A program made the translations under genes and the position numbers. Positions 37,626-39,792 of a stretch of 64,000 bases of DNA are shown here, in pieces. Every line of letters begins with the position of its first letter. Position 1 is the stretch's first letter. The DNA lies in assembly GCF_900109345.1 (NCBI RefSeq), contig NZ_FNZN01000004.1:186001-250000 (forward strand), read 5' to 3'. The notes beneath the pieces are model-generated. The model was not told where the DNA came from, made no database searches, and saw only the letters and a program-made list of their open reading frames with translations. This DNA is from Maribacter orientalis. Its GTDB lineage: Bacteria; Bacteroidota; Bacteroidia; Flavobacteriales; Flavobacteriaceae.

Positions 37626-38759
37626 TTATTTTAGATTGACCATAAACAAATCAGCTGCAATGCCGTCTGCTAAAAACATGCCTTTTTTGGTTGTTCTAAG
37701 TGTTTCATCATCTACAAATAAAAGATGTTCTTCAATAAATTTTTCGGCTTGTAATATCGCATATTCCTTAAACTTTGGGCCGAATTCGGTTGCGATTCTA
37801 CTTAAAGATACTCCCCAAATAGTTCTAAGGCCCGTCATTATATATTCGTTGTATTTATCAGTAGCGGATAGCACTTCCACCTCCATAGGAACGATATCTT
37901 GCTCAATCGATTTAATATACTTCGGATTGTTATTTATGTTCCACCCCCTGCGTACACCATCAAAAGAATGTGCAGACGGACCAATACCTATATATTTTTT
38001 CTGCTGCCAATACGCGGAATTATTTTTTGAGTAATAACCAGGTTTTCCAAAGTTGGAGATTTCATAGCAATCAAATCCCGCACCCAAAAGTGTTTCGTTC
38101 AAGAGGTTAAAATGCTCTTGTGCTTCTTCATCACTGGCCGGTGAAACCAATCCTTTTTCCACAAATTTGGCAAGGGCCGTTTTGGGCTCTACGGTTAATG
38201 CATAACTAGATATGTGCGGAATTCCGTATCCAAGCGCTTTATCAATATTTTCTTTCCAACGCGCTAAACTCATGTTGGGCATTCCATAAATTAAATCAAT
38301 GGAAATATTATCGAAATGTTGCCTTGCCAACTGCAAACTTTTTTCTGCCTCTGCAGCATTATGTGCCCTATTCATCAGTTTTAAATCCTCCTCAAAAAAC
38401 GATTGAATACCGATACTTAATCGGTTTATAGAACTCGTTGCCAATTGCACTATTTTCTCTTCGGATAAATCATCAGGATTCGCCTCTAAGGTGATTTCAG
38501 GAGTATCGACAACAGTATAATTCGCACGAACCGCATTCAATATTTGCCCTATTTCATCCGTTTGCAAAACAGATGGTGTACCACCACCAAAATAAATTGT
38601 CGCTACAGTTTCTCCTTCAAACTCCGCCCTACGCAATTCTAGCTCCTTACATAACGCGTTCACCATTGCCTCTTTCTTCCCCATCGAGGTAGAAAAATGA
38701 AAGTCACAATAATGACAAGCTTGTTTGCAAAATGGAATGTGGATGTATATTCCGCTCAT
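37626..38759 (-). CDS. hemW: HemW, radical SAM heme chaperone
   Basis: This 377-residue radical SAM protein has the cluster motif C-x3-C-x2-C in PFCKQACHYCDFHF, then YFGGGTPSVL, LEANPDDLS, INRLSIGIQSF, LNRAHN-like MNRAHNAAEA, and SIDLIYGMPNMS. The CYCDF ending and short C-terminus fit HemW rather than true oxygen-independent coproporphyrinogen oxidase. It starts 5 nt after the end of the four-helix-bundle cassette, whose terminal repeat therefore occupies its upstream region. Confidence 0.92.
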   Translation of the reverse strand: MSGIYIHIPFCKQACHYCDFHFSTSMGKKEAMVNALCKELELRRAEFEGETVATIYFGGGTPSVLQTDEIGQILNAVRANYTVVDTPEITLEANPDDLSEEKIVQLATSSINRLSIGIQSFFEEDLKLMNRAHNAAEAEKSLQLARQHFDNISIDLIYGMPNMSLARWKENIDKALGYGIPHISSYALTVEPKTALAKFVEKGLVSPASDEEAQEHFNLLNETLLGAGFDCYEISNFGKPGYYSKNNSAYWQQKKYIGIGPSAHSFDGVRRGWNINNNPKYIKSIEQDIVPMEVEVLSATDKYNEYIMTGLRTIWGVSLSRIATEFGPKFKEYAILQAEKFIEEHLLFVDDETLRTTKKGMFLADGIAADLFMVNLK

Positions 38760-38764
38760 TTTTT

Positions 38765-38797
38765 TAGTTTTCAGTAATCAGTTGCAGTTGACAGTAA
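38765..38797 (+). repeat. Left terminal inverted repeat of the S23 cassette
   Basis: It begins TAGTTTTCAGTAATCAGTTG and carries TAGT/CAGT units starting at 38765, 38772, 38779, 38785 and 38792. It ends 1 nt before the S23 stop codon. Confidence 0.85.
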
Positions 38798-38798
38798 A

Positions 38799-39164
38799 TT
38801 ACTCTGAACCAAATTTTGTTGGGTTATTAATCATATAATTTAAAAGCTTACCTACTTCTTCACTATCGCTTTTAAACTCATCAAAAGTATCTTGGTCAAG
38901 ATACTCACACTTTAACGCAAATTCAAGCCATGTTTGTGTTTCTGAATTTTCCGCATCACTATCGGTCAACTTACTTATAAAATGTTTAGGAAATCTTCTT
39001 TTGCGATAAGCTTCTGCAATATTTGCACTGACACTTCTTGACGAACGTCGCATTTGGTCAGTCAAAGAATACTTTTCTTCTGTTGGAAAAGACTTTGAGA
39101 TATGAAAAATCTTCATAGCTAGTGTAAAAGACCTTTTATAAGCCAATAAATCTTGAAAATGCAT
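38799..39164 (-). CDS. Four-helix-bundle protein (S23 / 23S rRNA intervening-sequence protein family)
   Basis: This 121-residue all-helical protein has the family core: LLAYKRSFTLAMKIFHISKSFPTEEKYSLTDQMRRSSRSVSANIAEAYRKR. The ending is TWLEFALKCEYLDQDTFDEF, LLNYMIN. Free-standing copies are very common in Bacteroidetes. A structural relative, Avd, is the accessory protein of diversity-generating retroelements. No function is proven for free-standing copies. Here the gene fills a cassette bounded by inverted ACTG-unit repeats. Confidence 0.93.
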   Translation of the reverse strand: MHFQDLLAYKRSFTLAMKIFHISKSFPTEEKYSLTDQMRRSSRSVSANIAEAYRKRRFPKHFISKLTDSDAENSETQTWLEFALKCEYLDQDTFDEFKSDSEEVGKLLNYMINNPTKFGSE

Positions 39165-39176
39165 ATGATATTTATT

Positions 39177-39240
39177 ACTATTTACTAATACTGCTAACTG
39201 AACACTGTTACTGCCTACTGAAACTGATTACTGAAAACTA
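39177..39240 (-). repeat. ACTG/CAGT unit array and right terminal inverted repeat
   Basis: Ten ACT(G/A) units start at 39177, 39184, 39190, 39197, 39204, 39210, 39217, 39223, 39230 and 39237, with spacing 7,6,7,7,6,7,6,7,7. The last 33 nt (39208-39240) are the inverted repeat of 38765-38797. The array forms the leader of the S23 gene, and its last unit overlaps the ruvC stop. Confidence 0.85.
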
Positions 39241-39792
39241 CTTTTTCACCCGTTTCTCGTTTTGTTTCACAAAAGCATCCCAGCCAGTATAACTTTTACC
39301 AACCTCAACTCTACCCTCGTTATAAAAATGACATACGGCAGCCGCTAGACCATCGGTGCTATCCAGGTTTTGCGGTAACGTTTTTAATCCTAATACACTT
39401 TGCAGCATTTTTGCCACTTGTTCTTTACTGGCGTTTCCATTACCGGTAATCGCCATTTTAATTTTTTTAGGAAGGTACTCAGTAATTGGGATTTGTCGTG
39501 AAAGTCCCGCAGCCATGGCTACACCCTGAGCTCTGCCTAATTTAAGCATCGACTGTACGTTCTTACCAAAAAATGGCGCTTCAATAGCTATTTCATCGGG
39601 ATGATAGGTGTCAATTAACTCAATCGTACGCTCAAAAATGAGCTTTAATTTTGTGTATGGGTCATTATATTTTTGAAGTAGCAGTTCGTTCATTTGAATA
39701 AACTCCATTTTTTTACCCACTACTTTAATGAGTCCGAAACCCATTATAGTTGTACCAGGGTCAATACCCAATATAATTTTCTCGTTCGCCAA
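39238..39792 (-). CDS. ruvC: Crossover junction endodeoxyribonuclease RuvC
   Basis: This 184-residue Holliday-junction resolvase has its catalytic acids visible: D11 (LGIDPGT), E71 (AIEAPFFGKN), and D144/D147 (NLDSTDGLAAAVCH). The motif VQSMLKLGRAQGVAMAA is typical. The C-terminal tail is basic. The stop codon TAG lies inside the terminal repeat of the adjacent S23 cassette, so the original 3' end may have been altered slightly. It lies 5 nt downstream of the lipoprotein gene. Confidence 0.95.
   Translation of the reverse strand: MANEKIILGIDPGTTIMGFGLIKVVGKKMEFIQMNELLLQKYNDPYTKLKLIFERTIELIDTYHPDEIAIEAPFFGKNVQSMLKLGRAQGVAMAAGLSRQIPITEYLPKKIKMAITGNGNASKEQVAKMLQSVLGLKTLPQNLDSTDGLAAAVCHFYNEGRVEVGKSYTGWDAFVKQNEKRVKK

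Follow-up and report, generated by a model that had tools for sequence, protein, structure and literature searches.

An S23 gene enclosed by inverted arrays of a family-specific short word in the ruvC-hemW spacer of Maribacter orientalis: a probable counterpart of rRNA intervening sequences in a protein operon

We analysed a stretch of 64,000 nucleotides from Maribacter orientalis (contig NZ_FNZN01000004.1, positions 186,001 to 250,000; hereafter the window), in which the spacer between ruvC and hemW is taken up by a gene of the S23 four-helix-bundle family lying between two inverted arrays of a short repeated word. Our interpretation, to which we give a probability of about 0.6, is that this block is a cassette like the intervening sequences (IVS) of 23S rRNA genes, housed in a protein operon, in which inverted arrays of a family-specific word of ~7 nt enclose an S23 gene. 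At the level of sequence, the comparisons below establish the anatomy of the cassette, the coupling of protein and word, the replacement of one cassette by another, exchange independent of the flanks, sense orientation, and purifying selection. In what follows, genomes (G), contigs (C) and loci (L) carry our own numbers, with G000 denoting the genome of the window.

The ends of the block are two inverted arms of 33 nt each (38765-38797 and 39208-39240), which are 91% complementary (30/33), lie 410 nt apart and, compared by eye, agree exactly over their outermost 19 nt. Reading from the outside inwards, each arm opens with TAGTTTTCAGTAATCAGTT, followed by CAGT units every 6 or 7 nt. A three-unit CAGT pattern gave seven matches in the window, every one of them within the block, and none in 100 shuffles. 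S23 is the spacer's only open reading frame (ORF) of 60 aa or more, and the block encodes no transposase or other enzyme. Alignment and the ORF list bore out an earlier sequence-only account of this DNA (the preliminary description), which had reported inverted 33-nt ends around this single ORF. That account needs one correction: in the ruvC-side arm the outermost 3 nt (39238-39240) are the TAG stop codon of ruvC, and this arm is the outer portion of a longer CAGT array reaching to about 39190. The 3′ array begins 1 nt past the S23 stop codon and reads ACTG...ACTA in the transcript. Since the cassette fills the whole spacer, a target-site duplication cannot be delimited. In the predicted RNA of the block a stem closes around S23, with a minimum free energy of −117.5 as against a mean of −95.6 for shuffled sequences (z −3.5). 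An Rfam scan of 38600-39400 returned no known RNA family at the gathering score and no rRNA match, the sole match being a chance-level one inside ruvC (E 0.1, 18 of 80 bits).

We then compared the same site in relatives. A ruvC match was present in 59 of 60 genomes (own included), and the 30 best loci were fetched and read. Fourteen carry an S23 gene of the window's type (type A), 66-100% identical to the window copy and in one case (L085) split in two pieces. Eight carry a different S23 gene (type B), 25-30% identical to the window copy and in the identical place and direction. The remaining eight have no S23, their spacers measuring 14-23 nt in five cases and 115-150 nt in three. Array words differ with the gene, being CAGT/ACTG for type A and CAAT/ATTG for type B; the type-A relative at 66% (L076) carries AGT-type units, and the number of units differs among orthologues. 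Type A and type B cassettes replace one another at one site, and empty sites exist. On a flank tree built from ruvC and hemW DNA (30 rows; 13 of 27 inner branches weak) the three states need 11 changes, and the well supported branches alone force at least six changes for type A and at least six for type B. Sister pairs differ in state, as do the window genome (type A) and G015 (type B), between which the flanks share 92.6% and 92.9% identity. These comparisons support gain, loss and exchange of the cassette together with its ends, in line with the non-autonomous mobile cassette of the preliminary description. The empty ruvC-hemW spacers that it had proposed to look for in relatives are present, and the outcome that it saw as arguing against mobility, the same block in all relatives, is not what we found, as relatives carry a different block or none.

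Divergence of the cassette was set against that of its neighbours in 13 of the 14 type-A loci (78 pairs; L085, with its S23 in two pieces, was left out) and in all eight type-B loci (28 pairs). Median uncorrected synonymous differences were 0.46 for S23, 0.68 for ruvC and 0.66 for hemW in type A, and 0.43, 0.58 and 0.64, respectively, in type B. The S23 value lay under those of both flanks in 57 type-A pairs and 21 type-B pairs (78/106 in total) and above both in five pairs of each type (10/106). In identity, S23 exceeded both flanks by 3 points or more in 41 of the 106 pairs and fell short by that margin in one; in the extreme pair, S23 was 99.4% identical and the flanks 90.2 and 92.2%. For the window gene, the synonymous difference was below both flanks in 10 of 12 pairs. 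Corrected synonymous divergence (dS) had medians of 0.44 for S23 and 1.28 for both ruvC and hemW in type A (finite in 54, 49 and 57 of 78 pairs), and of 0.63, 1.07 and 1.44 in type B (finite in 28, 26 and 26 of 28 pairs); as it is finite in part of the pairs only, the conclusion rests on the uncorrected comparison of all pairs. The lower synonymous divergence of S23 suggests that the cassette moves between species independently of its flanks, and the cassette seems to be younger in place than they are. The median ratio of nonsynonymous divergence to dS (dN/dS) was 0.12 in type A (54 pairs with finite dS) and 0.07 in type B (28 pairs), indicating purifying selection on the S23 protein.

The arrangement extends well beyond this site. 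From 211 ORF hits we obtained a catalogue of 201 S23 genes after removal of duplicates, and of 194 once a minimum of 95 aa and of 150 nt of flanking DNA on either side was required. Comparison of the 5′ flank with the reverse complement of the 3′ flank gave a mean score of 19.5 within the same locus, as against 12.3 with the flanks of other loci, 11.8 in direct orientation and 11.3 after shuffling, and 133 of the 194 loci outscored all 20 of their own shuffles. Among control HIT genes of the same genomes, two of 30 beat their shuffles (mean 12.0). The preliminary description would have counted a lack of similar ends around other S23 genes against itself; ends of the same style do surround other S23 genes. 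In the families examined, the inverted flanks take the form of arrays with units of ~7 nt, the flanks of L103-L131 having been judged by computation only. Words vary from one S23 family to another and go with the protein rather than with the site: flank words matched in 48.4% of different-site pairs whose proteins are at least 70% identical (n = 1584), as against 0.5-2.4% in the five identity bins under 50% (n = 14,265). The catalogue comprises 30 families (55% linkage; 21 are single loci) at 54 sites, with type A at 16 sites and more than one family at five; sites were defined by similar neighbouring ORFs, and short contigs may inflate their number.

Units of type-A arrays are spaced by 7 (507 cases), 6 (152) or 8 nt (4), and runs of three to five units at 7- or 6-nt spacing account for 50 of 85 on the left and 52 of 85 on the right. 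TAGT is the outermost unit of 35 of 76 arrays on the left side and of 37 of 75 on the right; a TAG stop ends 87 of 188 upstream genes (one of the 188 being unreadable), compared with 28 of 194 S23 genes themselves. Using crude longest-ORF gene calls, on which the positions of arrays relative to genes also rest, we found that S23 shares its direction with both neighbours in 176 of 194 loci. Where the neighbours agree with each other, S23 is in sense in 176 of 177 loci, or 51 of 52 when one is counted per site and family. A median of 58 nt separates the upstream stop from the S23 start, and the arrays fill this 5′ leader. Within genomes, 1/110 pairs of S23 genes was at least 55% identical and 0/110 at least 80%, among the copies fetched, and in a whole-genome search of 23 genus genomes 12 had a single type-A gene each and 11 had none. 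There is thus no sign of multiplication inside a genome, and the lack of near-identical copies among those fetched speaks against an active transposon.

A second site, in a split gene that we take to be metH from its products, occurs in empty, filled, layered and scarred forms. Of the 30 loci read there, the 22 from the genus were used and the eight from outside it were not. The site is empty in six genomes (G002, G005, G006, G007, G010, G014), with 23-29 nt from the upstream stop to the conserved downstream start. S23 stands there with GTTGTTGG arrays in five (G003, G013, G017, G018, G022), with TCGTT arrays in another five (G004, G008, G011, G019, G020), and as a third kind of cassette with the word GTTGTCGG in two (G012, G021). 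A piece of the other word's left array precedes the TCGTT cassette, most clearly in G011, G019 and G020, and these layered arrays look as if one cassette had replaced another. The window genome, G015 and G001 have no S23 at metH and retain two or three TCGTT-type right-array units within the start of the downstream gene; such units are most simply read as scars of cassette loss, the alternative being that they are seeds. The remaining genus locus, that of G016, was assigned to none of these states. At this site the downstream gene has taken in array DNA as its first codons, and the upstream gene has sometimes done so as its last. In the window genome itself (L333, G000:C4 about 11,800) the split metH holds two TCGTT-type units and no S23, likely the scar of a lost cassette.

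Arrays of the type-A word are also dispersed away from S23. The pattern CAGTNNNCAGTNNCAGTNNNCAGT, covering mixed CAGT arrays, was found in 28 of 36 genus genomes and its reversed control in 0/36. In 58 regions fetched for these arrays there are 89 runs of at least three units, of which gene 3′ ends carry 37 with CAGT on the coding strand and 15 in the opposite sense; most of the arrays listed are single and not inverted doublets. In the 29 of 36 genus genomes with a fetched ruvC locus (G036, outside the genus search, was left out), dispersed arrays occurred in 21 of 22 with S23 at ruvC and in one of seven without (Fisher 1e-4), and the value for type A alone against the rest was 0.08. A dependence of the arrays on a resident S23 is not counted here as evidence, since it comes down to two independent well supported tree pairs and may be the history of one clade. 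Among individual regions, L281 (G000:C4:18,690) and L288 (G021:C7:159,500) hold short CAGT arrays paired in inverted orientation, separated by a loop of ~14 nt without an S23 gene, and resemble miniature inverted-repeat transposable elements. In L276 (G001:C1:3,942,800-3,943,700) direct, not inverted, CAGT arrays flank one gene, presumably an amino-acid racemase, and one intergenic region of L275 (G021:C13:150,200-152,600) contains arrays built on the words of several S23 families (CAGT, AAGTATT, AACCAAC).

The closest known parallel is the IVS of 23S rRNA genes with an S23p ORF, such as the 428-nt IVS of Coxiella, of which passages of PMC4990558 describe an inverted stem, RNase III, and heptamers before the ORF that vary among strains. 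Judged by those passages, the two share an S23 ORF in sense, a similar size, bordering inverted repeats able to close a stem around the ORF, tandem heptamers just before it that vary in number between strains, and a patchy, apparently horizontal distribution. They differ in that the ruvC-hemW block lies between protein genes and not in an rRNA gene, that S23 cassettes have arrays on both sides and family-specific words, and that S23 is here under purifying selection, whereas the Coxiella ORF is degenerating according to the same passages. As the anatomy equals that of the IVS, we consider an IVS-like operon passenger with a word-recognising ring protein the most likely explanation. In such a scheme the S23 cassette, lying in sense between ruvC and hemW, would presumably be transcribed with both, and the arrays of the transcript could pair into a stem that closes off the S23 frame, as in the IVS. 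RNase III cuts such a stem in the 23S rRNA IVS and may also act here, on what would be an mRNA as host. One solved relative of S23 forms a homopentameric ring, and from the association of protein and word we infer that S23 most likely recognises the word array of its own family. Cassettes are exchanged between species at one site, occasionally reach new ones and leave array scars when lost, and they would be moved by an enzyme encoded outside the cassette, through host recombination or at the level of RNA.

Several observations weigh against this scheme. Sixty-one of the 194 catalogue loci fail to beat every one of their own shuffles. The linkers between words agree in 16.1% of cases in register and 9.6% out of register (0 of 2000 permutations), so that they are mostly mismatched and a perfect stem is not conserved. 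The window S23 shows no nucleotide excess over its flanks in comparison with other type-A genes (for example 84.8% versus 85.8 and 79.3%), and its isoelectric point of 6.3 is not basic, the catalogue median being 8.6. Low synonymous divergence of S23 could partly reflect constraint on the RNA, sense orientation may reflect selection for expression, and simple homologous recombination within the flanking genes could account for the A/B swaps at one site. Dispersed CAGT arrays number 3-22 in type-B and 0-31 in type-A genomes; type-B genomes being equally rich in them, a resident type-A S23 is not required for the arrays.

Among other explanations, an appreciable though minor chance goes to a DNA system of the REPIN/RAYT kind, in which the arrays are mobile, S23 is their single-copy partner, a recombinase acts in trans, and the dispersed arrays are offspring. 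As far as passages of PMC3116915 describe it, such a system has features in common with the present case: the gene occurs in single copy with its own repeat at its flanks, repeats are scattered through intergenic DNA, and where a genome holds several such genes each is distinct, as RAYTs are. The dissimilarity of S23 copies within genomes, the single type-A gene per genome, the dispersed arrays with their clean control, and the recombinase or integrase genes that adjoin S23 in 8/15 cyanobacterial plasmid loci (see below) all suit it. Yet S23 has no transposase domain, there are heptad arrays instead of palindromes, most of the dispersed arrays listed are single, and array number is independent of the resident S23 type. 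A smaller chance is left for allelic exchange alone, under which A and B are two forms of one host gene, homologous recombination through ruvC and hemW does the swapping, and heptads are products of slippage with no function. Swaps do retain site and flanks, and unit number varies among orthologues; slippage, however, cannot account for matching inverted arrays that follow the protein family, and type A at 16 neighbourhood-defined sites and the empty sites and layered arrays at metH also speak against it.

Autoregulation of a host gene, with S23 or a general heptamer binder such as a cold-shock protein (a candidate for TAACTGA repeats in passages of PMC4679880) reading arrays in both leader and trailer in the manner of a TRAP-type ring, would fit purifying selection, the array-filled leader and the regular spacing of three to five units. 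We regard it as quite improbable, because inversion of the arrays puts the word in sense only once in the transcript, and because a needed regulator would not be expected to occur patchily, with clean empty sites. We give hardly any credence to a remnant or partner of a diversity-generating retroelement (DGR), with S23 as an Avd-like protein moved by reverse transcription. S23 and Avd belong to one four-helix-bundle superfamily, by weak profile matches, and the window protein just passes the cut-off of the bAvd-like profile PF22296 (42.7 versus 40, far under its PF05635 score). The DGR Avd model NF033474, in contrast, scores 28.6 against a cut-off of 80, no reverse transcriptase is near, and six genomes with S23 (G005, G011, G015, G017, G019, G021; each at least 99% complete, with 3-7 S23 matches) have no RVT_1 match at E 1e-4. 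These results do not support the link to Avd and reverse transcriptase drawn in the preliminary description. They also largely refute a resident RVT_1 enzyme as the mover, leaving room for a reverse transcriptase below the threshold or lost later. The window genome's only RVT_1 match is on contig C5, the window being on C10. This match (G000:C5:102666-103067, in an open frame of 544 codons) lies ~1.6 kb from a solo CAGT array (C5:101056-101093).

The IVS-like reading also bears on intergenic heptamer repeats. Cyanobacterial short tandemly repeated repetitive sequences are one class of these. To our knowledge, such repeats have been described since the 1990s without a gene attached. Others are the TAACTGA repeats of PMC4679880 and the GGGAATC and GGGGA(T/C)T repeats of PMC4692102, which, in the passages concerned, share with the S23 arrays the heptad period, the intergenic location and the adjoining stop and start codons, and differ in being described without an associated gene. 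On the other strand the TAACTGA array reads as CAGT plus a 3-nt linker, and GGGAATC arrays have the same polarity to stop codons as CAGT arrays (passages of PMC4692102). The word S23 is absent from the main text of both papers. Titles, term counts and passages of the open-licence full texts listed disclosed no link between S23 and dispersed heptamers, and among the matches listed S23 and heptameric repeats came together only in the Coxiella paper (PMC4990558). Passages of PMC4679880 name S1, Csp and CsrA proteins as candidate binders of TAACTGA repeats, and its author suggests there that a repeat-binding protein might itself be a mobile element. The pairing of protein and word ties S23, a family without a known role according to passages of PMC4990558, to an unexplained class of bacterial DNA repeats, and offers S23 as a candidate binder other than S1, Csp and CsrA. 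The role of S23 and the origin of heptamers become testable, as each S23 family should prefer its own word if this is true. A wider proposal, which we put forward tentatively and hold at well under even odds, is that S23 proteins are sequence-specific readers with one word per pentamer subunit, and that S23 and its arrays form a transposase-less system of the REPIN/RAYT kind with a private word per family. Such a system would be the source of dispersed heptamers in Cyanobacteria, Bacteroidota, Beggiatoaceae and Xanthomonas, and the rRNA IVS would be its rRNA branch.

The window protein matches PF05635 with E 3.7e-33 (114.4 bits, cut-off 33.8) and TIGR02436 with 108.4 bits (cut-off 24). PF05635 and PF22296 gave its only Pfam matches, with no transposase or Y1 transposase domain found. 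Its closest named relatives are from Maribacter, and the solved relatives 2rld and 2gsc were compared by sequence search only. No second PF05635 match at E 0.01 or better was found in this genome, the window S23 being the only one; 116 of 148 genomes sampled from the window's phylum have a PF05635 match. PADLOC (E 0.001) returned no anti-phage defence model. Coordinates are collected in Table 1.

Table 1. Features of the ruvC-hemW block and its neighbours in the window.
Feature	Coordinates	Strand	Remarks
5′ array	39190..39240	-	TAGT then seven CAGT units, 6-7 nt spacing, read on the - strand
S23 / four-helix-bundle gene, type A (family 0), 121 aa	38799..39164	-	Same strand as ruvC and hemW
3′ array, inverted copy	38765..38797	+	TAGT then four CAGT units on the + strand
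ruvC, upstream neighbour	39238..39792	-	TAG stop is the outermost array unit; name from the preliminary description
hemW, downstream neighbour	37626..38759	-	ATG 5 nt past the 3′ array; name from the preliminary description

Outside the phylum, the window protein matched S23 genes in 38 plasmid records (18 of them Nostoc by name), 37 at below 60% identity and one in the 60-80% band, and a tblastn search of 50,697 phage records gave no match that would point to a phage origin. The best 15 plasmid loci are all cyanobacterial; 11 have inverted flanks that beat 50 shuffles and four do not, and their arrays consist of G-rich units such as (A)GCAGGGG. In eight of these 15 (L360, L362, L363, L368, L369, L370, L371, L373) genes for tyrosine or site-specific recombinases or integrases adjoin S23, and in a ninth (L372) S23 stands beside one of DDE type. 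These neighbours offer a lead to the enzyme behind the movement. PDDEXK_3 (PF13366), a further gene family, had no match in the 23 genus genomes searched, so that S23 cassettes do not need it here. Eleven loci of this family from three relatives, G037, G040 and G042 (L375-L385), were inspected; matching inverted flanks are present in eight, and some of the flanks show repeated words such as CACAGAG.
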